Notes under the pieces: generated by a model
What the model was told of the DNA's origin: nothing
Seen by the model: only the letters and a program-made list of their open reading frames with translations
The model's database searches: none
Program-made: the position numbers and the translations under genes
IMG/VR virus record: IMGVR_UViG_3300030099_001449
Location: 1 to 56,039 of that record
Direction: 5' to 3' (one strand)
DNA from: a virus
Length of the DNA stretch: 56,039 nucleotides
Shown: positions 41,762 through 54,452 of the stretch, piece by piece
How the letters are laid out: each line of letters opens with the position of its first letter
Numbering within the stretch: the first letter of the stretch is position 1

Positions 41762-41967
41762 TGCCTAGTTTCTATATTAATACCATTCCCACCAAGCAAT
41801 TGAATTAAATCGTCAGCAGATTCTTTTACTGCTTCTATTGCTGATTCATCTTCTAATGCTGCCGCAACTGCTAAACTTACTCCTATAAGATTCATAAGAG
41901 CGTCTAGTTGCATGGGGTGCATCTTCTTTAAACTAAGTACCTTTTTACTATGTTCTGTGTATTTCAT
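41758..41967 (-). CDS. Small helical protein after DNA polymerase
   Basis: 69 residues from the ATG at 41967, which overlaps the polymerase stop by one base (TAATG); an upstream start six codons earlier would overlap the polymerase more. KKVLSLKKMHPMQLDALMNL, then IGVSLAVAAALEDESAIEAV. Helical, moderately hydrophobic. Could be a polymerase accessory or a regulator. Unassigned. Its stop overlaps that of the convergent ejection-protein gene. Confidence 0.55.
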   Translation of the reverse strand: MKYTEHSKKVLSLKKMHPMQLDALMNLIGVSLAVAAALEDESAIEAVKESADDLIQLLGGNGINIETRH

Positions 41968-43874
41968 TAATCTACCTCTCCCCAATTATTAGCAAGAACG
42001 TCATCTACTTTAGATGGCACTTTTAGTATATCATTTAATCCATTTTCCATAATATCTTTTATTTTTTTAGCTTGATTCTTATCTTGTACTGAGAAGCATA
42101 ACTCATCATGCACTGTTAACATAGGTAGTAATCCCTCCTTATAACAATCAGCCATAGCTTTTTTTGTTTGATCTGCAGCTGAACCTTGTATCAATTTGTT
42201 TAAAGCCTTGTATGTAAACGCTCTTCTTAGAGGTTGACCATACTCTTTCATAGCATCTTCATATAATAATGGTTTGTTATAACCAAAAGACTTTGGTTCC
42301 CATAAATGAAAATGACAACGTCTACCTAGCAAAGTTCGAATCACTCCATAGTCTAAAGCTTGTTTGGATGCTATGTCGGCTAAGTCTTTTACAAAAGGAA
42401 CTTTAGACTTGTGTGTGTTCAATATGTCAGAGGCTTCTTCTAAAGATACCCCTAACTGATTCGCTAGTTTACCTTTACCCATACCATACATAATACCAAG
42501 ATTTACTGTCTTTGCTTCCTTACGACTAATCCCGGCAAAGTCTGCAACCATCTGATGTAAATCAACGTCACCATTATGATACTCCTCTACAATACCATCT
42601 ACCATTTCATGTTTTCTTTTACCAAGACTCGCAGCAAAGTGAACCAAGAGCCTTGGTTCCTGACTAGAATAATCAAAGGATCCCCACTTGGTGTCCTCTT
42701 CTGGTAAAAACAAACCACGTATCATCTTTCTGATCTCTGGATCTCTAGCCGGTATCTGTTGCAGATTAGGATTAGATGAAGAGAACCTACCTGTCACAGT
42801 TCCACCATCATCACTTCTTAACTGGTGGAACTCTGCATGAATGCGTCCTTTGTGTGCATGAGTTTTAATTGTATTAATAAAAGTAGAACCTGCCTTATCA
42901 AACTCTCTGACCTTTACAATTGCTTGACATACTTCATGTGGGTGATTCGCTAAGAATTGTTTTGTAAAAGAAGGAGACCCTATTTCTGTTTTAGGATATT
43001 TTAAATTAAGTTTATCAAAAACTTGTCTAACCGAATCACTTGCCCAGGGTTTGATATCAATACTAGTTTTTAATTTTATCCATTCCTTTAGTTCTTTTAC
43101 TTTGTGAGATAAAGAAACATCTATTTGATCTGCCTTGTCTAAATTAACACGAACTCCATGCGTTCTCATATCTAGCATGGTGGGTATGAGACTTGTTTCT
43201 AACTTCCAGATATTCCATAGATCTTGTTTCTCAATCTCTTGTTTTAATCGCTCCCAAAGTTTTAGTGTCATAACAGCATCTTGTTCTGCATAAGCACCTA
43301 CCTTTGCTGGTGGTAGTATCCACATGTCTGCCTTTGGATCTATGCCCCAGTCTTTTGCAGTAGCACGTAATAGTTTTTCATCCTTACGCATGTTAATCCA
43401 ATCTCTTCCTAGATTATCCAAGCTATAAGAAAATCTATTTTCATCTACGATAGCACCAGTGACCATAGTATCAATGACTCTTCCTTGTACCTCGATACCC
43501 TCGGCTCGTAACCAACCCAGATCATAGGTAGCATTGTGCATAATCTTATCTACATTTGGAGTTTCCATCTGTTTTTTAAACCAACGCATTGTTATTTTAG
43601 GATCTAAGTTATGTCCATTCTTGTGTCGGATAGGGAAGTATCCATAGTAATCACCAGCTGCAACTGCTATGCCTACGATAAAACCATCTTTTCTACACCA
43701 TCCGGGACCTAGTTCCTTGATCCTTGGATCATGCGTTTCTAAATCAACCGCTACTTGTCTATACTGTGAAAGATCTGGATAGTCACAAGGAATATTCCAA
43801 TCTTTATCTATGACATCAATCTCTAATCTATGAAAATAATCAATAGTGCTTTTGTCTTTTCTATCTCTTGCCAT
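41967..43874 (-). CDS. DNA polymerase, family A
   Basis: 635 residues. N-terminal 3'-5' exonuclease: VAVDLETHDP (ExoI), MHNATYDLGWLRAEG (ExoII), YAEQDAVMTL (ExoIII). Polymerase: GTVTGRFSSSNPNLQQIPAR, motif A FDYSSQEPRLLVHF, motif B RKEAKTVNLGIMYG, motif C TVHDELCF. The residue matching E. coli Pol I Phe762 is Leu459, a variant common in marine phages and reported to alter speed or fidelity. No 5' nuclease domain. Replicates the phage genome with the primase, helicase and SSB genes of the same operon. Overlaps the next gene by 14 bases. Confidence 0.93.
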   Translation of the reverse strand: MARDRKDKSTIDYFHRLEIDVIDKDWNIPCDYPDLSQYRQVAVDLETHDPRIKELGPGWCRKDGFIVGIAVAAGDYYGYFPIRHKNGHNLDPKITMRWFKKQMETPNVDKIMHNATYDLGWLRAEGIEVQGRVIDTMVTGAIVDENRFSYSLDNLGRDWINMRKDEKLLRATAKDWGIDPKADMWILPPAKVGAYAEQDAVMTLKLWERLKQEIEKQDLWNIWKLETSLIPTMLDMRTHGVRVNLDKADQIDVSLSHKVKELKEWIKLKTSIDIKPWASDSVRQVFDKLNLKYPKTEIGSPSFTKQFLANHPHEVCQAIVKVREFDKAGSTFINTIKTHAHKGRIHAEFHQLRSDDGGTVTGRFSSSNPNLQQIPARDPEIRKMIRGLFLPEEDTKWGSFDYSSQEPRLLVHFAASLGKRKHEMVDGIVEEYHNGDVDLHQMVADFAGISRKEAKTVNLGIMYGMGKGKLANQLGVSLEEASDILNTHKSKVPFVKDLADIASKQALDYGVIRTLLGRRCHFHLWEPKSFGYNKPLLYEDAMKEYGQPLRRAFTYKALNKLIQGSAADQTKKAMADCYKEGLLPMLTVHDELCFSVQDKNQAKKIKDIMENGLNDILKVPSKVDDVLANNWGEVD

Positions 43875-44124
43875 CTAACTCGCCCCCTAAACCTGCATAT
43901 CCACAGATATCAACCCATGAATCTTCTTTATCCTCATGCACAAGACGAGCTAATTTTAAGGCAATCATACAAAGATACACTTGTTTTACAGTTACTTCGT
44001 GACCAAAAACAACAGACCAAATATCTGCTATTCTTTTATGATTAACATAAGCATCACCATAATCTTTTGCTCTGTCACCATTAATTAATCTTTCTGCCTC
44101 TTGTAATATTTTTTCTCTTTTCAC
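43861..44124 (-). CDS. DUF6378-like phage protein
   Basis: 87 residues with a GTG start (44124) that overlaps the preceding TGA by four bases (GTGA). AERLINGDRAKDYGDAYVNH, then ALKLARLVHEDKEDSWVDIC, then GYAGLGGEL, the conserved pattern of a common phage family without known function (recalled as DUF6378, unverified). Probable nucleic-acid metabolism helper by context. All-helical. Confidence 0.65.
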   Translation of the reverse strand: MKREKILQEAERLINGDRAKDYGDAYVNHKRIADIWSVVFGHEVTVKQVYLCMIALKLARLVHEDKEDSWVDICGYAGLGGELDGKR

Positions 44125-44276
44125 TGTATCTTCTCCTTTGGATCAATGTATCTACCACACTCTACACACTGGTCTTTAGAGTATTTATCCCAATAAGTTT
44201 TCCATGTGTATCCACAAGGACATTCATAGTTCAACAGAAACAATGGTTTCTGAACTCGTCTTTTTTTATTTTTCAT
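44121..44276 (-). CDS. Small zinc-ribbon protein
   Basis: 51 residues. Basic start (KNKKRRVQKPLFLLNYE), then CPCGYTWKTYWDKY and CVECGRY: a two-knuckle zinc ribbon with CxCG and CxxCG pairs. It starts four bases before the helicase stop (ATGA) and is coupled to the GTG start of the next gene. Such ribbons often bind DNA or polymerase; nothing more specific. Confidence 0.6.
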   Translation of the reverse strand: MKNKKRRVQKPLFLLNYECPCGYTWKTYWDKYSKDQCVECGRYIDPKEKIQ

Positions 44277-45802
44277 ATTATGTACCTGTATTTTTTATCT
44301 GATTCTATTAAGTATAAGTTTTGTTTTGCTCGAGTAACTGCTACGTAGAATACTCTATGTTCGTCCTCTGGATGTTTACCCTCTGCACAAGCTTGAGTTG
44401 AACCCAAATAAACGGCAACGTTATCATCCTCCCCTCCTTTCATAGCATGGATGGTTGATAGTTTGATACGAGGAATACCCTCTATAGACTCTCCTCTTCT
44501 TTCAAGAGCTGCTATATACAACTTCTCTTCTTCACTTAGTCTGACTATGTCCTTTGCATCTCGACTCAAAGGGGCAAGCATACCAAAATCTTTTACGAGT
44601 TCTGCATGTGTAACATCCGCATCTGGAGCCAACATATCAAGTAAAGATGCAGAACCTCTAGCCACAACTGCATCCTTCCCCATTTTAGGAACGGACTTAT
44701 AAAATCTTTTTATCGTATCAACTGGTAAAGCATAGTAGTTTTGTAAATACTTCCATATAGACATGACATCTAAGTGTTCTTGTTTTATAGATGATCTCCC
44801 TTTTATGGAATAAAAATAACCTAACGACCTTAAATCTTCTGCCATGTCTCTTACAAAGTTATTTGTTCTTGCCATGATAGTCCAAGAACCTTGATCTAAT
44901 GGTAGGTCTTCAACTCTCCATACCCAATCTACTTTTCCTTCCTCCTCTCTTGGATAAAACTCTTTAGCTATTCTGTTAGGTATGCGTCTAGATATGCGCT
45001 CAGACAACGCCCAGACACTACGTGGTAGGCGAAAAGATTTATTAAGTACTTTTATATTGTCAGAGGAATTGGCAAATCTCTGGACGTTTACGCCTGTCCA
45101 ACGATGGATTGCCTGATCATCATCACCAGCAATAATAATTTGATCAGAATTGTTTGCCATCTTTTCCACCATTGTCCACTGCAAAGGAGTTAAATCTTGT
45201 GCCTCATCTACAATTAAAAGATCAAGATAGGGTGGATCTACATCCTCTATGTACTTCTTTATCATGTCAGAAAAATCTAGTTTGTTAGCGTTACCCTTAT
45301 ATAATAAAAGTTGATTAGATATCTGGACTAATTTTTCAAAGTACAAGGTATAATCACTAGCGTTACTATACTCAACATCAAGTGGTACTTCTTTGTAAGT
45401 TGCTCTCATTATCATCTGTAAATACTTGGAACCTGAACCACCAATCGTAGGAATAAGAACTCCTTCATCCGGGGATGTCGCATCTGCACCCTCAAAGTCC
45501 ACACCAAGCATATTACTTAACGTTCTGTAATCCTCTCTTCCCATTACATCGGCAGAGTCTAAACCTAGTCCATGAAACCCAGTAGCATGTAACGTTCTAA
45601 AGTGTGGAAAGTCATCCTTTGTAAGATTAAACTCTGCACATGCCCTATCAATAAACTCTCTTATGGCTTTGGTCGTGAATGAAACCACTCCAATACGAGA
45701 AGGACTTATCCCATCAGCAAGAGCATTCTTCACTTCTTGTATCAAAGTGTAAGTTTTACCACATCCTGGTGGACCTAGTATTAGTTTACTATTCTCTATC
45801 AT
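44273..45802 (-). CDS. SF1 (UvrD/PcrA-like) DNA helicase
   Basis: 509 residues. Walker A LGPPGCGKT (residues 8-16), motif Ia-like VVSFTTKAI, Walker B LLIVDEAQD, motif III IIAGDDDQAIHRWTG, NKSFRLP (IV), STIHAMKGGE (V) and FYVAVTRAKQNLYL (VI), all in order for a superfamily 1A helicase. ATP-driven unwinding during replication, repair or recombination. Joined to both neighbours by four-base overlaps. Length is shorter than host UvrD, consistent with a trimmed phage form. Confidence 0.9.
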   Translation of the reverse strand: MIENSKLILGPPGCGKTYTLIQEVKNALADGISPSRIGVVSFTTKAIREFIDRACAEFNLTKDDFPHFRTLHATGFHGLGLDSADVMGREDYRTLSNMLGVDFEGADATSPDEGVLIPTIGGSGSKYLQMIMRATYKEVPLDVEYSNASDYTLYFEKLVQISNQLLLYKGNANKLDFSDMIKKYIEDVDPPYLDLLIVDEAQDLTPLQWTMVEKMANNSDQIIIAGDDDQAIHRWTGVNVQRFANSSDNIKVLNKSFRLPRSVWALSERISRRIPNRIAKEFYPREEEGKVDWVWRVEDLPLDQGSWTIMARTNNFVRDMAEDLRSLGYFYSIKGRSSIKQEHLDVMSIWKYLQNYYALPVDTIKRFYKSVPKMGKDAVVARGSASLLDMLAPDADVTHAELVKDFGMLAPLSRDAKDIVRLSEEEKLYIAALERRGESIEGIPRIKLSTIHAMKGGEDDNVAVYLGSTQACAEGKHPEDEHRVFYVAVTRAKQNLYLIESDKKYRYII

Positions 45803-46014
45803 TCGAATAAACTTCTAGCTCTCTTTTCTTCTAACCATTTTTCAACGTCCTCTCGAATCCATCTGGCTGACATTCTTTTTGTATTGTCATCACCAAACTT
45901 AATTGGTTTTGGAAAACGTTCCTCCTTCACCCATTTGTATATGGCTGACTCCGATACGTTTAACCATTCTGTTATGTCGCCAATCCTCATTAGCTTAGAA
46001 GGGTATTTCGTCAT
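45799..46014 (-). CDS. AlpA/MerR-like helix-turn-helix protein
   Basis: 71 residues from the ATG at 46014 (GAGGA upstream; an adjacent GTG at 46017 is the alternative). MRIGDITEWLNVSESAIYKW, then VKEERFPKPIKFG, then RWIREDVEKWLEEK: the winged-helix excisionase/AlpA pattern that binds DNA. Fully inside the replication operon between primase and helicase, so it may be a regulator or a replication protein loader. No integrase is present, so excisionase use is unlikely. Confidence 0.75.
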   Translation of the reverse strand: MTKYPSKLMRIGDITEWLNVSESAIYKWVKEERFPKPIKFGDDNTKRMSARWIREDVEKWLEEKRARSLFE

Positions 46015-47530
46015 CACCTATTTCCTCTGTTTCTAGTTTCACTTCTTCTCCTTTAAATTCTGGAACCCACCATACTCTTATTGTTGTTCGATCCCCCGAT
46101 TCCTTTCGTATGCTCTTGTGTCCACTGCAATCATTGTCCTCATTTAGTTTCTTCAACTGTTCTTGTATCTGCGCTCTGGTGAAATGTGTGAACTTACGAT
46201 TGTTCAAAAACTCTACGAGACCAGACATAGTAAACATGGTTAATCCCTCATCTGTCCAAGGCTTACCATGTATAAGTTCCTCTGGATGTATGGCTCGTAT
46301 TCTGTTCGTACAATAAATACGTAGAAGCTCTGTAAACTGACCAGATACTTTCAGTTCCTCCGGAACCTCAAGCTTTGTTGCATCTTTTAGCAGTTGAGAT
46401 ATGGTTTGATGCCACTTGTTTGGACGCATGGTAGGTGGCATTTCAAGTATCTGCTCCATGCAAGCACGTTGAAATAAAGTTTGATTTTGCAATTGCTCTG
46501 TGGATAGTTGCACTCTTTGTCCAGCAACATCTAAAAAATAAAGTCTTGGTTCTGATAATAAGATAGTCAAACTACCAATGGCAGGCATCTCTGGTCCTTG
46601 ATCACCCACGCCATACTTTCTTGTTACACAAAGCTGCTTGTCACAATAACTCTTGAATGGTTCTTGTTCACACGTGTAAAAATATTCCTTCTTGTCCAAA
46701 GATTTCTGTAAGTTCATCACTTCTTTGGCATCTAGTGGAGTTGTAAACATTTGACGATTCATTGTCTCGAACTCCTTGACCCAGTCATCTGGAGTCTTCA
46801 ATCGACAGTATACTCCACACATAAATAACTTTTTATTTCGGTCCTCGCTACTTGGACCATCTGCAAATAAATGTTCCAGACATGGTGGGCCATCTGTAAA
46901 ATATTTTCTTTTACCGGAAACAGAACTTTTCTCTAGCTTATCTATAGATATTCTGCTTTTCTGCATGAACTCTACAAACTCATCAAGCTCCATTGCCTCC
47001 CCTTTTTTGTTAAAGCAATACCGTTGTGTAAGTTCTGCTTTGAAATAAGGTAAGTTAATAAAGTTACCTACATCTCCACGTTCTGACAGTATCTTATCTT
47101 GCTTTGGAAATATCTCACATCCACTATGACCCAAAGCCACCGCCATTTCTAATAAATATTCTCTAACAATAGACGCTTGTTCGTAGTGTGATAAGAACAA
47201 GAACAAGTGCGCTCCCCCGGATTTAGACCTACAATGCACCAGAGGTAGTTTTAGTTTTTGTATTTTCTGCTGCAGTGTTTGATGATCTAGGTCATAAACA
47301 TCCACATCCAAGGCCCCCCATTTGCACTCGTTCTTGTCATTGATGGGGATAGCACCTACCCCCTTTTGACCATTGAGATGGCCCTTTAATAACTCAATGG
47401 TCAATGGCTCACGCACAATGCGACTATCCGCATCGGCCTTGCCATTCCTACCAATTCTCCCCACGTTGGTAGTACCATGTGCCACCTTCGATCCCTCAAA
47501 GGTGGCAAGCATTTGTTGAGCTAGTGACAT
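45995..47530 (-). CDS. AEP-type primase with SSB-like acidic tip
   Basis: 511 residues. N-terminal 200 residues resemble the archaeo-eukaryotic primase fold of phage and TOTE primases: KWGALDVDVYD with metal-binding Asp75-x-Asp77, and CRSKSGGAHLFLFL. A middle Cys-bearing region (PPCLEHLFADG; CEQEPFKSYCDKQLC) may bind zinc. C-terminal part (about 320-500) is helical, possibly helicase- or template-binding. The last residues GDDEIPF equal the tip of the neighbouring SSB-like protein. Synthesises RNA or DNA primers for the polymerase. Confidence 0.75.
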   Translation of the reverse strand: MSLAQQMLATFEGSKVAHGTTNVGRIGRNGKADADSRIVREPLTIELLKGHLNGQKGVGAIPINDKNECKWGALDVDVYDLDHQTLQQKIQKLKLPLVHCRSKSGGAHLFLFLSHYEQASIVREYLLEMAVALGHSGCEIFPKQDKILSERGDVGNFINLPYFKAELTQRYCFNKKGEAMELDEFVEFMQKSRISIDKLEKSSVSGKRKYFTDGPPCLEHLFADGPSSEDRNKKLFMCGVYCRLKTPDDWVKEFETMNRQMFTTPLDAKEVMNLQKSLDKKEYFYTCEQEPFKSYCDKQLCVTRKYGVGDQGPEMPAIGSLTILLSEPRLYFLDVAGQRVQLSTEQLQNQTLFQRACMEQILEMPPTMRPNKWHQTISQLLKDATKLEVPEELKVSGQFTELLRIYCTNRIRAIHPEELIHGKPWTDEGLTMFTMSGLVEFLNNRKFTHFTRAQIQEQLKKLNEDNDCSGHKSIRKESGDRTTIRVWWVPEFKGEEVKLETEEIGDDEIPF

Positions 47531-48321
47531 TAGAATGGAATCTCGTCACTGTCCTTATCAACTTTTGTTTGTGTTTGTTCAGGTGAATCTGTTTTAACTT
47601 CACCCTTGGCACTTGAGACATGCAAAGTCTTAGCCTGGTTAAAAAGATTACCATCTTGAATCAAACCAACTTTAGTAACAGAATAGTTAAAGTAAGTTTG
47701 ATTTTGTTTATTTGTCTCCTCTACAGTTTTAAGCATCCAAATGTTACCAAAGATAGGACATGGAGCAATCTTATTAGTCTTTGGATGAGTGATTGTCTGT
47801 AAGTTGATCTGTGTTTTCCACCTACGACTAACCTTGAGTGCTGTACTTTTCATATCAAGAACAGCTGGTGTCCAAGAACCATCACTAGATTTTACCAACA
47901 CAACATAGTTATCTGCCTTAACAACTTCATTGCCATTTGGTAAAGTTTCTGTTGCTCCTTCTCTTGTTGTCTGTGTAAGTACAGAATCTTTGGGATCTAT
48001 CTCACCTACAAATCCACCACCATCATCAAGAGATACCCATTCGGTATATTTAGTCTGAACGTAGCAAGGCACGATCTCTACACCTTTATCCCAATATTCT
48101 TGAGTAAGATTATTAAAGATATCACCTTGTCCACAACCATCTATAAACTTAGCATCAGACTTCTTAATCTCTGGTGACATGGCTTGTGCAATACGAATAA
48201 AAGGCATTTGCATTTCATCACTTGCAAAATCGGCCCCTGCACCTGCCATACTAAATAAATCATCAGCTAATTCTGTAGAAATTACTCCGTCCTTAACTGC
48301 ATTTGCTACTGCGTTTGCCAT
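47530..48321 (-). CDS. SSB-like single-stranded DNA-binding protein
   Basis: 263 residues. Opens MANAVANAVKDGVISTELAD and has an OB-fold-like central region (about 60-210; VEIVPCYVQTKYTEWVSLDD, WMLKTVEETNKQNQTYFNYS). The C-terminus is acidic and ends DSDEIPF, like bacterial SSB (DDDIPF) and the acidic tail of T7 gp2.5, the docking site for replication partners. Between primase and the coiled-coil gene, with one-base overlaps on both sides. The OB-fold is inferred. Confidence 0.65.
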   Translation of the reverse strand: MANAVANAVKDGVISTELADDLFSMAGAGADFASDEMQMPFIRIAQAMSPEIKKSDAKFIDGCGQGDIFNNLTQEYWDKGVEIVPCYVQTKYTEWVSLDDGGGFVGEIDPKDSVLTQTTREGATETLPNGNEVVKADNYVVLVKSSDGSWTPAVLDMKSTALKVSRRWKTQINLQTITHPKTNKIAPCPIFGNIWMLKTVEETNKQNQTYFNYSVTKVGLIQDGNLFNQAKTLHVSSAKGEVKTDSPEQTQTKVDKDSDEIPF

Positions 48322-48890
48322 TATGCTTTCCTCCCTATACTAGCAACGTTTCTTACATAACCTCCCAACAAATCTAGATCTAAAGAAATGCCTTTCTCTA
48401 ATCCATCTTTGATGAAACTTTTTAATGTACTTGCATGAACTGAAGTCTTTTGAACTGGATCAAAACCTTTATCTTGTAAAAGACCAATCACATCACCAGC
48501 TAAATTATCTTCACCTTTTGAAAAGGACATGGTTACATCATTCTTAATAATACCATCATGTCCATTCTCTCGGAGCCATGCAAATGCAGCTTCTTTATTT
48601 GCTTCCGTAATCCTTGCATCAATTTTCTGCACAAGTTTTACCTCGACACCATTAAACGTGCCTCTGGTTTGACCCATTTCTTCCATCAATGCAGGTATAC
48701 GTTCTGTCTCAAGTTGATATTTAATTTTATTCAAACGTTTCAACTCTGTCTCCATATTTGAAATTTGATCATTCACGTCCTGGACTTGAGATACCAAGGA
48801 GCTAAGATCTTTACCAGTTTCTACGTTTACATCTTTTAATGCACTGGCTACATCAAACATGTCATCAAATATTTTTGTATCTGTATTCAT
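48321..48890 (-). CDS. Coiled-coil early protein
   Basis: 189 residues from the ATG at 48890 (GGAG upstream; longer starts at 48902 and 48935 are weaker). A leading helix (FDDMFDVASALKDVNVE), a long coiled coil (about 35-75, LSSLVSQVQDVNDQISNMET), then a globular part (EAAFAWLRENGHDGIIKNDV; KGISLDLDLLGGYVRNVASI). Found in similar places in other marine phages, no function known; a replication- or nuclease-inhibitor (Gam-like) role is only a guess. Confidence 0.55.
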   Translation of the reverse strand: MNTDTKIFDDMFDVASALKDVNVETGKDLSSLVSQVQDVNDQISNMETELKRLNKIKYQLETERIPALMEEMGQTRGTFNGVEVKLVQKIDARITEANKEAAFAWLRENGHDGIIKNDVTMSFSKGEDNLAGDVIGLLQDKGFDPVQKTSVHASTLKSFIKDGLEKGISLDLDLLGGYVRNVASIGRKA

Positions 48891-48923
48891 TAAACACTCC
48901 ATTGTTTTTGTTTCAGATAAGGA

Positions 48924-48952
48924 TTGACAAATCATTTCGTCATCCGTAATGT
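48924..48952 (+). promoter_or_regulatory. Promoter of the SNF2 helicase pair
   Basis: TTGACA (48924-48929) with 17 bases to TAATGT (48947-48952) on the plus strand, perfect -35. It starts the only rightward transcript within the leftward early block; transcription starts about 14 bases before the ATG at 48974. It overlaps the 5' leader of the divergent coiled-coil gene. Confidence 0.6.
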
Positions 48953-48973
48953 GGAGTATAGTGGAGATATATA

Positions 48974-50446
48974 ATGAATGTCAACTACAAATATAAAACA
49001 AAACCATATAAGCACCAAGAGATTGCTTTGCAGAAGTCTCAAGGTAAAAAAGAGTATGGATATTTTATGGAGATGGGAACCGGGAAGTCTAAAGTTTTAA
49101 TAGATGAACTAGGTATTTTGTATTTAAAAGGTGAAATAAATTTTGCTCTAATCATAGCACCAAAGGGTGTCTATCGGAACTGGGTATCCAAAGAGATACC
49201 AGAACATATGTCTCAAGAGGTTCCTCATAGAGTGATTCGTTGGGTAGCTAATCCAAATAAAACACAACAAACAGAACTACAATCCATCAAAAAGTCCTTT
49301 TCCGGTCTAACTATATTCGTCATGAATGTAGAAGCCTTCTCAACTATAAAAGGTAAGAAGGCTGGAGTTTGGTTAGGTGGTGCGCTTGGCAGCTTTGGTC
49401 TTATAGCTATTGACGAATCAACCACAATCAAAAACCACAAGGCCAAACGCTCAAAAAATTTAGTAAATATTTCAGAAAAATTCAAGTACAAAAGAATATT
49501 AACTGGATCTCCAATAACAAGATCACCTCTGGATATCTATCAACAATGTGAATTTTTAAGACCAGGACTCTTAGGACATGAAAACTATTATAGCTTTCAA
49601 GGCATGTATGCTGTTATTAATAGAAGATCTATGGGATCTCATTCCTTTCAACAAGTTGTAGGATACCGAAATCTCGATACTTTAACCTCGCTTCTTGATT
49701 TGTACTCTTATCGTGTACTCAAAAAAGATTGTTTGGATTTACCGGAAAAACTTTATACTGCTAGGTACGTTAGTCTCACTGATGAACAAGCCAGAATGTA
49801 TTCCAAACTTAAAAATGAAGCTATGGTTTTACTTGATAAAGGTGAACTGGTTACTGCACCAGCTATCATCACACAAATGTTACGGCTCCAACAAGTCATG
49901 TCTGGTCATTTAAAAACAGATGATGGTGAAATGGTTTACTTTCAATCCAAAAGAATGGATGCCTTGGAAGAAATACTAGAGGAACATGATGGTAAGTCTA
50001 TTATATGGTCAAGGTTTCGATACGATATCATACAGATAACAAAACGTTTGAATGAAAAGTTTGGACCCAATTCTGCAGCTTCGTTCTTTGGTGATACACC
50101 AGATGAAACGAGACAAAGAATTATTGAGAACTTTCAAAACCCAAATCATCCTTTAAGATTTTTTATAGGTAATCCTGCTACTGCTGGATATGGATTAACT
50201 TTGACACAAGCTAACCTTGTCATTTATTATGCAAATGATTTTAATTTAGATACAAGGATGCAATCAGAAGATAGGTGTCATAGAATAGGTCAGAAAAATT
50301 CTGTAACTTATATTGATCTAATTTCAGAGGGAACGATAGATGAACAGATTGTAAAATCACTTCGTAATAAAATTAATTTAAGTGCAAAAGTATTAGGAGA
50401 GGAAGCAAGGCAATGGCTAAGTCTAAAACCCAAGAGCAATTTATAG
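48974..50446 (+). CDS. SNF2-family DNA translocase/helicase
   Basis: 490 residues. Walker A MGTGKSK (Lys38), motif Ia LIIAPKGVYRNW, motif II IDEST (Asp147-Glu148, with the Ser-Thr typical of phage SNF2 proteins), ILTGSPITRSP (III), SIIWSRFRYDI (IV), NPATAGYGLTLTQA (V), QSEDRCHRIGQ (VI). DNA-stimulated ATPase that moves on duplex DNA; roles in recombination-based replication or defence evasion are possible. GGAG sits seven bases before the ATG. It is transcribed against its neighbours. Confidence 0.9.
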   Translation: MNVNYKYKTKPYKHQEIALQKSQGKKEYGYFMEMGTGKSKVLIDELGILYLKGEINFALIIAPKGVYRNWVSKEIPEHMSQEVPHRVIRWVANPNKTQQTELQSIKKSFSGLTIFVMNVEAFSTIKGKKAGVWLGGALGSFGLIAIDESTTIKNHKAKRSKNLVNISEKFKYKRILTGSPITRSPLDIYQQCEFLRPGLLGHENYYSFQGMYAVINRRSMGSHSFQQVVGYRNLDTLTSLLDLYSYRVLKKDCLDLPEKLYTARYVSLTDEQARMYSKLKNEAMVLLDKGELVTAPAIITQMLRLQQVMSGHLKTDDGEMVYFQSKRMDALEEILEEHDGKSIIWSRFRYDIIQITKRLNEKFGPNSAASFFGDTPDETRQRIIENFQNPNHPLRFFIGNPATAGYGLTLTQANLVIYYANDFNLDTRMQSEDRCHRIGQKNSVTYIDLISEGTIDEQIVKSLRNKINLSAKVLGEEARQWLSLKPKSNL

Positions 50447-52063: not shown

Positions 52064-53311
52064 TCAAGCTCCTTTTTTATTTAATACGTATTCTTTGTGT
52101 ACTCTACCCATAGATAAGTTTCCTCTCTCATGTGGCTTCACCCAAACTTTTCTACCATCTTTTAAAACTCTTATGTGTCCTCGAACTTCATGTCTTCTTT
52201 TAGCTATGCCAGTTCCACCAAAAATTTGATCTTTAATCTGATATCCCTTCTCTTTTGGTAAGTCTATCTCTACAATTTCAAACGTATCTCCCTTTGGTGG
52301 GTGTATAAAATGTTGTTTACTCCCTTCACTTTCTATGACTTTGTTGGGAGCTATCCAATCGTAGTTAAGAGTTTGTAATAATGAGAGACAATTCTTCACA
52401 TCCTTTGCGTAAATCTCTTCATACTCTTTCATTTTTTCCTCTACTCCTGGTTGATCCCAAAAGTTATCAATTAACTCTTTGTTCACAACGTATTTATAGA
52501 AGTCATCTTTCTTCGACCAAACTTGCTTCCCCGGTTTACCTAAAAAATCAACTTGAATAATGATAGGTAGCTGGTATTCAAACCCTTCTTTATCAAAATA
52601 AATTCTTCTAAAATTGTAGACTAATTCTGCGTTCTTTTTAGGAAAAATATGAAACCCAACTTTAGGATAAATTTTAGTTTGTGTTTTTCTACAGAGTATG
52701 GGGTCATTACAAAATTCAATAAACAAGTTATCAAAACATGGTAACATATCATCTATCTCATTTGGAAAAATAGGAGTGTTCTTAGTACCCTTTATAGTAA
52801 AGTCATCATGTTCTAATTGATCTTGCCAGTCTTTGCCTAGTATTTTGGTTTCGTATACCCAATCCATCAAATTATTGTTAGCTGCAAACTTCTTACTGTG
52901 CCTTAACTTTATCTTCTCTTTCATCAATACTTGTTTCATTTCTCTAGGGTTATCTATGCCATGCCTCCTTAAATAACCAAGAGACTTTGACGCATTGTTT
53001 ACAATGGTTTGAAAGTACATATCAAAAACACTTTTATCTCCATCCTTGAATAGCATTGGAGTTCTGTTATCAAATTCAAAAAAAGATAGGGCAGCAGAAG
53101 TAAATCTAATCTTCTCATCAGTTGAATTTTTAAACCTTTGAGAAGGAGTGGTTGGGGTAAAGTTGGTGGAAGTATAATCTCCCACCAAGCCAGAAGTAAA
53201 AGCTCTGTCATCATAAGTTTTTTTGTCAAGTTTACCTTTTCCTAACTTCTTTTGGAAGTTGCCTCCTCTCCATTTGACACCCGTTTTTTTAAATCCTCGC
53301 TTTACTGCCAC
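52064..53311 (-). CDS. Conserved phage protein of unknown function
   Basis: 415 residues from the GTG at 53311, eight bases after AAGGAG (the TTG at 53317 is too close). N-terminus basic (VKRGFKKTGVKWRGGNFQKK). Middle is aromatic-rich and partly strand-forming (VGFHIFPKKNAELVYNFRRI; PIIIQVDFLGKPGKQVWSKK). The C-terminus (HEVRGHIRVLKDGRKVWVKP, GRVHKEYVL) is a module that I recall from several phage and plasmid proteins. Overlaps the methyltransferase gene by 23 bases. No catalytic motif found; perhaps DNA-handling. Confidence 0.6.
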   Translation of the reverse strand: MAVKRGFKKTGVKWRGGNFQKKLGKGKLDKKTYDDRAFTSGLVGDYTSTNFTPTTPSQRFKNSTDEKIRFTSAALSFFEFDNRTPMLFKDGDKSVFDMYFQTIVNNASKSLGYLRRHGIDNPREMKQVLMKEKIKLRHSKKFAANNNLMDWVYETKILGKDWQDQLEHDDFTIKGTKNTPIFPNEIDDMLPCFDNLFIEFCNDPILCRKTQTKIYPKVGFHIFPKKNAELVYNFRRIYFDKEGFEYQLPIIIQVDFLGKPGKQVWSKKDDFYKYVVNKELIDNFWDQPGVEEKMKEYEEIYAKDVKNCLSLLQTLNYDWIAPNKVIESEGSKQHFIHPPKGDTFEIVEIDLPKEKGYQIKDQIFGGTGIAKRRHEVRGHIRVLKDGRKVWVKPHERGNLSMGRVHKEYVLNKKGA

Positions 53312-54452
53312 TGTCAATCTCCTTTTTTATAGCTAATCCTATTTGCATGGCAATTTGTGGAACGATTGCATTGCCTAGTCCTTTAAGTCTGTCCACCCTT
53401 TTGGGTATCCCATTAGCCACTCGACCCACATTGGGTTCAGCGAACCAGATGCCTTCGTCTGTGTAGACTCTACCATTCGATTTTCCACCATGTCCGGTAA
53501 AGAGTTCGTTGGAGTCCTTCCAGATTTCTTTAGGGCCTCTGGTTTCCTCGATCCCTTGTAATCCCTCGCCATTGGCGTTGGCCACATGTGAACTGGCTCT
53601 GGATCTTCTGCGTCCTTCACTGCTGAAATCAAGTTGATCTGATGGTTCTTCTCGATCAAATTCTCCTTGGACCTCGGTCCTCTGTTCCCATCCCAAGCAT
53701 TTGGTGTAGGCCATAGTTTCATGGTCTCCTCGTCCACTTGCTCCCTCAAATTGCTTGGCTTGGATCTCCCCTTTCTGTGACCCTCTTGCATCTTCCTCGT
53801 TGCTTCCTCTGATCTGGGTGGTAGATGATCCATTGTGTTGGGTGTCGCCCATAGTTGTTCGTGTTGAACTTGTGCGAATAGATTGTGCTTCTTCGCTTTC
53901 TGTTCCCCCAACCTTTTCTTCGCTGACTCGAAACTCTCCTCGCCCCCCACTCGAGGAGTCGCCCACATTCTTGCAGACGATCCAGAGTCTGTCTCTCCTA
54001 TGGGGCGCATTTTTGGCACAAGCTGGTACAATAAACGTCCTTGTGGCGTAGCCTTGGTTTTCCATGTCAGATAACACTTTGTCGAGACCCAAGGCAACGT
54101 GACCATAAACGTTTTCGAAAACGCACCAAGAGGGTCTTTTGAATGTAACAATTCTAAAGATGTACGGCCAGATGTGGCGGTCATCTTCTTCTCCTTTCCT
54201 AAGTCCTGCGACTGAGAATGGTTGACATGGGTATCCGGCAGTGAGGATATCGTGGTTGGGAACAAGTCTTTCTGGGTCATCTGCTAACTCCTTTACGTCT
54301 GTAGCTATTGGTGTATTTGGAAAATTCTTTGCGAGTATTTGTCTGCACCACTTCTCTGTGTCACAGAACATAATGGTCTTGGATAGTTCAGCCCAAGAAA
54401 ATCCCAAGCTGAACCCACCAATTCCAGAACATAAATCTACATGTCTAAGCAT
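53289..54452 (-). CDS. dcm: DNA (cytosine-5) methyltransferase
   Basis: 387 residues. Motif I DLCSGIGGFSLG, motif IV AGYPCQPFSVAG with nucleophile Cys76, motif VI ENVYG, motif VIII RRDRLWIV, and IX-X RVANGIPKRVDRLKGLGNAI at the end. The region between VIII and IX (about 165-340) is polar and repetitive, with recurring V/M-A/G-N/D-T/A-x3-G units (GDSSSGG, GDTQHNG, AYTKCLG, ANANGEG), as in many phage cytosine methylases. GAGGAG precedes the ATG. A second complete frame lies within (53375-54280). Confidence 0.9.
   Translation of the reverse strand: MLRHVDLCSGIGGFSLGFSWAELSKTIMFCDTEKWCRQILAKNFPNTPIATDVKELADDPERLVPNHDILTAGYPCQPFSVAGLRKGEEDDRHIWPYIFRIVTFKRPSWCVFENVYGHVALGLDKVLSDMENQGYATRTFIVPACAKNAPHRRDRLWIVCKNVGDSSSGGRGEFRVSEEKVGGTESEEAQSIRTSSTRTTMGDTQHNGSSTTQIRGSNEEDARGSQKGEIQAKQFEGASGRGDHETMAYTKCLGWEQRTEVQGEFDREEPSDQLDFSSEGRRRSRASSHVANANGEGLQGIEETRGPKEIWKDSNELFTGHGGKSNGRVYTDEGIWFAEPNVGRVANGIPKRVDRLKGLGNAIVPQIAMQIGLAIKKEIDSGSKARI
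53375..54280 (-). CDS. Overlapping frame inside dcm: WPTP/EWLMG-type phage protein
   Basis: 301 residues read in another frame across dcm codons 58-359. The ATG at 54280 has AAGGAG seven bases upstream (54293-54288). Motifs: STKCYLTWK (66-74), four WATP/WPTP units (106, 144, 190, 233), PNTMDHLPPRSEEA (147-160), RGRSKPSNLRE-like GRSKPSNLRE (171-180), and LNPMWVEWLMGYPKGWTDL (281-299). I recall these blocks together in an established phage family often annotated near cytosine methylases. Both frames are intact, so the DNA appears truly dual-coding. Function unknown; partner or specificity factor for the methylase is a guess. Confidence 0.65.
   Translation of the reverse strand: MTQKDLFPTTISSLPDTHVNHSQSQDLGKEKKMTATSGRTSLELLHSKDPLGAFSKTFMVTLPWVSTKCYLTWKTKATPQGRLLYQLVPKMRPIGETDSGSSARMWATPRVGGEESFESAKKRLGEQKAKKHNLFAQVQHEQLWATPNTMDHLPPRSEEATRKMQEGHRKGRSKPSNLREQVDEETMKLWPTPNAWDGNRGPRSKENLIEKNHQINLISAVKDAEDPEPVHMWPTPMARDYKGSRKPEALKKSGRTPTNSLPDMVENRMVESTQTKASGSLNPMWVEWLMGYPKGWTDLKD

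Follow-up and report, generated by a model that had tools for sequence, protein, structure and literature searches.

A 56,039-nt stretch of viral DNA (IMG/VR record IMGVR_UViG_3300030099_001449, positions 1–56,039; hereafter the window) carries the cytosine methyltransferase gene dcm, and a second gene lies inside it in another reading frame. The two overlapping genes, termed alpha (dcm) and beta, very probably (roughly 0.85) specify a single heterodimeric C5-cytosine DNA methyltransferase. The sequence evidence covers dual coding, a conserved start signal, selection on both frames and constant co-occurrence of the two chains. A preliminary description of the window had proposed a conserved two-protein locus with dual coding, which the open frame, the start signal and purifying selection strongly support, but it missed that dcm and beta look like the halves of one enzyme.

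It is proposed that alpha is the catalytic subunit, in which motifs I–VIII (cofactor binding and Cys76) and motif X are joined by a long unstructured linker. Beta would be translated in the +1 frame from its own internal ribosome-binding site, and would supply what is missing from alpha: motif IX and, most likely, the part that recognises the target. The two chains would then assemble into an active enzyme. Its probable task is to methylate the DNA of the phage itself as a shield against host restriction, as orphan phage methyltransferases usually do. The genes checked near dcm included none recognisable as a restriction enzyme.

Table 1. Features of the alpha/beta locus, in window coordinates.
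Feature	Position	Strand	Basis
Alpha (dcm), 387 aa, C5-cytosine methyltransferase, motifs I–VIII and X	53289..54452	-	PF00145, E=5.3e-38; AlphaFold
Beta, nested +1-frame gene, 301 aa (301 codons)	53375..54280	-	phrog_1008, E=2.8e-33; open frame, selection, co-occurrence
Putative beta ribosome-binding site AAGGAG, 7 nt 5′ of the beta ATG	54288..54293	-	Conservation exceeds dcm codon needs
Alpha catalytic Cys76 codon (GYPCQPF, motif IV)	54225..54227	-	Sequence; invariant column in 79-sequence alignment
Region A, both frames constrained: alpha motifs IV–VIII, beta N-terminal part	53979..54280	-	w values; motif VIII boundary approximate
Region B: alpha residues 169–343, mostly disordered (predicted), nearly unconstrained; constrained WATP/WPTP region of beta	53424..53948	-	pLDDT, w values
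Beta WATP unit 1 (W106)	53954..53965	-	Sequence
Beta WATP unit 2 (W144); W144, T146 and P147 >90% conserved	53840..53851	-	Sequence, alignment
Beta WPTP unit 3 (W190); W190, T192 and P193 >90% conserved	53702..53713	-	Sequence, alignment
Beta WPTP unit 4 (W233); P234, T235 and P236 >90% conserved	53573..53584	-	Sequence, alignment
Beta motif-IX-like segment LNPMWVEWLMGYPKGW	53393..53440	-	Best profile alignment and best PSSM window, weak scores; followed by motif X in AquI-like relatives
Alpha motif X part (DRLKGLGNAIVPQ...), bases partly shared with beta end	53295..53399	-	Folded helices, high pLDDT; constraint 3′ of beta stop

The 3′ end of dcm is overlapped by 29 bases by a 417-aa ORF with a TTG start (52064–53317, minus strand). 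This ORF matched no Pfam, NCBIfam or PADLOC family, and only its C-terminus gave a weak match to phrog_10678. Elsewhere in the window, a replication block (41967–50446) encodes a family-A DNA polymerase, UvrD-like and SNF2-type helicases, an AEP primase related to the TOTE conflict-system primase, and two proteins resembling gp33 and gp34 of phage Pam3.

The preliminary description had read the basic features of the overlap accurately from the sequence: its coordinates, its extent (dcm codons 58–359), Cys76, AAGGAG at a distance of seven bases and the pairing of VANANGEG in dcm with WPTPMARD in the beta frame. Codon-shuffle simulations, in which the dcm protein was held fixed and codons were drawn among each gene's own synonyms, introduced a mean of 6.2 stops into the nested frame of the window and left it stop-free in 0.5% of cases. 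In 122 relatives the corresponding values were 7.5 stops and 0.13%. The real sequences of the window and these relatives contain no stops in the nested frame, and the third same-strand frame contains a mean of 18. Frequent stops in homologues had been named as evidence against a second gene; the frame was instead open at the same +1 offset in all 80 loci retrieved with dcm, where the middle of the gene is highly variable in length, yet the nested frame stays open. These loci were not selected for the nested frame, though some search peptides fall in the overlap. Among all fetched loci, the nested frame was +1 in 188 of 188 non-redundant nested cases.

The start signal is similarly conserved. 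Of 98 relatives, 70 spell the Lys-Glu codons 5′ of the beta start as AAGGAG, where codon use in the same genes would predict about 12%, and 76 of the 98 have a start codon 7 nt after the site (ATG in 68, GTG in 8). Judged on codon use, AAGGAG is conserved beyond the coding needs of dcm. No beta frame was seen in ordinary single-chain methyltransferases from the same genomes; beta therefore does not simply arise wherever a C5 methyltransferase is encoded. By these sequence criteria, chance falls far short of explaining the 301-codon nested frame, which is a conserved coding frame.

Selection was assessed by counting substitutions by their effect in each frame across 55 disjoint sequence pairs, calibrated by simulations with one or neither frame constrained (null w about 0.64–0.71). 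Region A, which spans alpha motifs IV–VIII, is under constraint in both frames (w_dcm 0.17, w_alt 0.46). Region B, 3′ of motif VIII, shows constraint in beta (w_alt 0.33, interval 0.26–0.41) but not in dcm (w_dcm 0.82, 0.73–0.91; dN 0.24 versus dS 0.21). Over the final 33 overlap codons, beta remains constrained (w_alt 0.34) and w_dcm is 0.74 (0.55–1.03), yet several alpha columns are highly conserved. Constraint on dcm returns 3′ of the beta stop (dN 0.11 versus dS 0.63). Along the gene, the frame under selection thus passes from dcm alone to both, then to beta and back to dcm. The synonymous-site comparison proposed at the outset gave a dcm synonymous divergence of 0.77 upstream of the overlap versus 0.15–0.28 inside it, and the simulation-calibrated constraint on beta in all parts of the overlap amounts to purifying selection beyond that imposed by dcm. 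The ANxxG units fared differently. They had been put forward as a signature of dcm itself, but the selection counts make this stretch a nearly unconstrained by-product of the beta frame. As region B is constrained in beta and not in dcm, the ANxxG units look mostly like a shadow of the WPTP units in the other frame.

The profile search that had been suggested for dcm returned PF00145 (Table 1). An alignment of 79 sequences, comprising the window and fetched-locus sequences, was used for AlphaFold modelling; in it, alpha residues P75, C76, E113, N114, V115, R153 and R155, which form the PCQ, ENV and RxR motifs, are invariant. The alpha model contains a confident catalytic domain (residues 1–165) and a C-terminal helical part with motif X (residues 352–386), and residues roughly 169–343 between them are mostly disordered (pLDDT about 33–50). 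Foldseek matched about 167–170 residues or columns of alpha to HhaI, and the alignment of the alpha profile with HhaI ends at motif VIII. The best motif IX windows in alpha were scattered and scored no better than shuffles. Because the matches to HhaI end at motif VIII and the middle of the model is disordered, alpha seems to lack the DNA-reading small domain, and with it a folded target-recognition domain, in cis.

Beta has no catalytic motifs. Its residues 11–206 match phrog_1008 (E=2.8e-33), and its C-terminal end reads LNPMWVEWLMGYPKGWTDL. When the beta profile was compared with ten ordinary methyltransferases, the best alignment fell exactly on motif IX (LTPKECQKLQGFPDWF), at a weak E=0.28. 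Correspondingly, the best motif IX window found by PSSM in the window's beta (P0001) starts at residue 279, also with a weak score; the same position was best in 60 of 79 family members (median shuffle p=0.2). Modelled alone, beta was predicted with low confidence (pLDDT 62, pTM 0.29), with one confident hairpin (residues 69–91) and a helix (residues 283–290). No recognisable target-recognition domain was present in this model, Foldseek returned no usable match for it, and PDB sequence searches with beta and the beta profile returned none.

Relatives with a different layout are informative on the position of motif IX. M.AquI is a split C5 methyltransferase with target CYCGRG, in which the alpha chain carries motifs I–VIII and a second chain carries IX and X. 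In 22 non-redundant relatives of the phage locus, alpha likewise ends after motif VIII, and the beta chain carries the IX-like segment followed by motif X. The IX-to-X spacing in beta of mycobacteriophage Catdawg is 18 residues, close to that of HhaI. Betas of this IX-plus-X type match phrog_1008 and, across the IX–X part, general methyltransferase profiles (phrog_116 at 7.5e-6 for Catdawg; phrog_363 at E=3.6e-9 and phrog_116 at 2.5e-5 for locus L184). The IX and pre-X segments share the same bases in 165 of 188 nested loci, and never in AquI-like loci. These relatives offer stronger support for beta as the putative motif IX carrier than do the direct motif scores.

Several individual loci stand out. 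In L239 and L241 the alpha ORF includes the motif IX segment, and motif X is in a separate ORF; these may be natural frame rearrangements, decayed copies or sequencing errors. The beta frame of an Actinoplanes genome (L221:3473-5695) runs on stop-free downstream as a 741-codon open frame, through either a fused gene or a high-GC effect. Five copies of one locus with identical match statistics (L169–L173) occur in a single uncultured Roseovarius chromosome, representing repeated prophages or an assembly effect.

Relatives of beta number at least 596 in IMG/VR and at least 342 in bacterial genome contigs. Matches to phrog_1008 were found in 17 of 299 genomes of one phylum and matches to the beta profile in 4 of 299 genomes of another, the beta-profile genome scan having used the pattern WVEWLMG, which favours loci carrying that segment. 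Searches of the collections give the best 80 loci, so that shares among them are not population frequencies. The preliminary description had assigned the nested product to an independent phage family. Family membership is borne out by the match to phrog_1008; independence is not, as no member was found apart from a cytosine methyltransferase. Among the best 80 beta-profile loci in bacterial genomes, all have an overlapping methyltransferase or, in one or two cases, a visible remnant, and no beta without alpha was found.

Further nested pairs lie in an Escherichia phage, on an Enterobacter plasmid and on an E. coli chromosome. Annotation of the two frames is uneven. Both frames are annotated as cytosine methyltransferase in Paenibacillus phages; beta alone is annotated in the Escherichia phage ('DNA methyltransferase, phrog_1008') and in Komagataeibacter phage phiKX1 (hypothetical), and alpha alone in the E. 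coli chromosome. The phrog_1008 label 'DNA methyltransferase' is attached to beta, as at L391:1527-2339. Beta is a member of phrog_1008, but lacking catalytic motifs it does not fit this label, which suits the locus as a whole. Pipelines based on phrog_1008 can consequently give the enzyme's name to beta while alpha goes without annotation.

Four other accounts of the nested frame were weighed against the two-subunit enzyme. A chance by-product of dcm codon use and low-complexity repeats has a negligible probability: a repetitive, charged alpha stretch can yield long open frames, but the codon-shuffle test, the fixed offset in 188 loci, the selection on beta, its start signal and the ordinary methyltransferases without a beta frame all oppose it, and the codon-shuffle and selection tests together rule it out. 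An equally negligible candidate is an out-of-frame homing endonuclease of the ShiLan-domain HNH type, a mobile insertion in which an HNH endonuclease ORF is hidden in a phage DNA methylase (PMC11855218). The setting is the same, as both cases involve an out-of-frame ORF hidden within such a methylase. Unlike that element, however, beta shares its bases with conserved catalytic motifs rather than forming an insertion, and every near relative has it; nor does it bear an HNH signature: no HNH or other nuclease family was matched by beta at E up to 10, or by 79 beta family members at E up to 1. With both signature and insertion absent, this candidate was ruled out.

Programmed frameshifting could instead fuse the frames, taking motifs I–VIII from dcm and the recognition region and motif IX from the other frame, with no separate beta. 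The switch of the constrained frame near motif VIII and the motif IX segment in the alpha ORF of L239 and L241 are consistent with such a fusion. It was nevertheless rejected as very unlikely, given that constraint on beta extends upstream of motif VIII too, that a ribosome-binding site and a start codon of its own are conserved, and that a second, opposite shift would be required to reach motif X in nested loci. Somewhat less improbable, though still unlikely, is that beta is a genuine overlapping protein with an accessory function (chaperone, inhibitor or anti-restriction factor), overprinted on a self-sufficient dcm. Such a factor would be constrained and conserved, as beta is, and the beta model shows no methyltransferase-like fold. 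Against it, the anatomy of alpha is not self-sufficient, as both a folded recognition domain and motif IX are missing from it, and AquI-like betas carry motif X, which is not expected of an unrelated protein. The heterodimer reading itself has to accommodate the low-confidence model of beta alone, the lack of a fold match for it and the weak direct similarity to motif IX.

A bacterial precedent for the heterodimer exists. Lee et al. (Lee, Kam and Shaw; 1995) reportedly found that an alternative frame within the alpha gene encodes the beta polypeptide of M.EcoHK31I. M.EcoHK31I is described as a two-polypeptide C5 methyltransferase with target YGGCCR, whose larger polypeptide carries motifs I–VIII and X and whose smaller one carries IX (PMC3404938). 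The preliminary description had missed this existing I–VIII plus X/IX split. Like M.EcoHK31I, the phage locus has a larger chain with motifs I–VIII and X and without IX, and in the window and its 188 non-redundant relatives the smaller chain lies in another frame within the gene of the larger. A motif IX in the smaller chain is a candidate feature: its best alignment and best window fall on LNPMWVEWLMGYPKGW, with weak scores, and the relatives with IX then X in one beta chain support it. Unlike M.EcoHK31I, the locus is phage-borne, and the neighbours checked yielded no recognisable restriction enzyme. Furthermore, phage beta carries the WPTP repeats and the most likely recognition region, whereas the published account places the predicted target-recognition domain of M.EcoHK31I in alpha (PMC3404938), an opposite placement that counts against the heterodimer reading. 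A tblastn search of plasmids with two beta queries returned related loci, none labelled EcoHK31I. The phage locus appears to follow the M.EcoHK31I design, a kinship inferred from architecture. It shares an alpha chain with motifs I–VIII with M.AquI as well, but in the window alpha does not end after motif VIII: motif X sits in alpha and beta is wholly nested.

An ordinary gene with the order I–VIII, recognition region, IX, X may have been the starting point. Two compensating frameshifts flanking the recognition–IX block, together with an internal start, would produce the nested layout; one frameshift alone would produce that of M.AquI, which is present in relatives.

The design is thus of a known kind, yet phages carry it more widely than expected, and annotation often covers just half of it. 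Searches of an open-access library turned up no account of this nesting in phages. Long same-strand overlaps are usually dropped as gene-calling artefacts, and this locus is a well-replicated phage example of dual coding over roughly 300 codons. As often only one frame, alpha or beta, is annotated in the records looked at, enzymes could be cloned minus a subunit and judged inactive. The results also suggest that the recognition region assigned to M.EcoHK31I alpha merits re-examination. With its hundreds of variants, this naturally split methyltransferase is useful for studying the evolution of DNA specificity and for building split-enzyme tools. On balance, it seems rather probable that in this large family of phages target recognition has passed entirely from the catalytic protein to that of the other frame, so that a long linker free of constraint is what remains in the catalytic chain. 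If so, changes in site specificity would arise by mutations that dcm barely feels.
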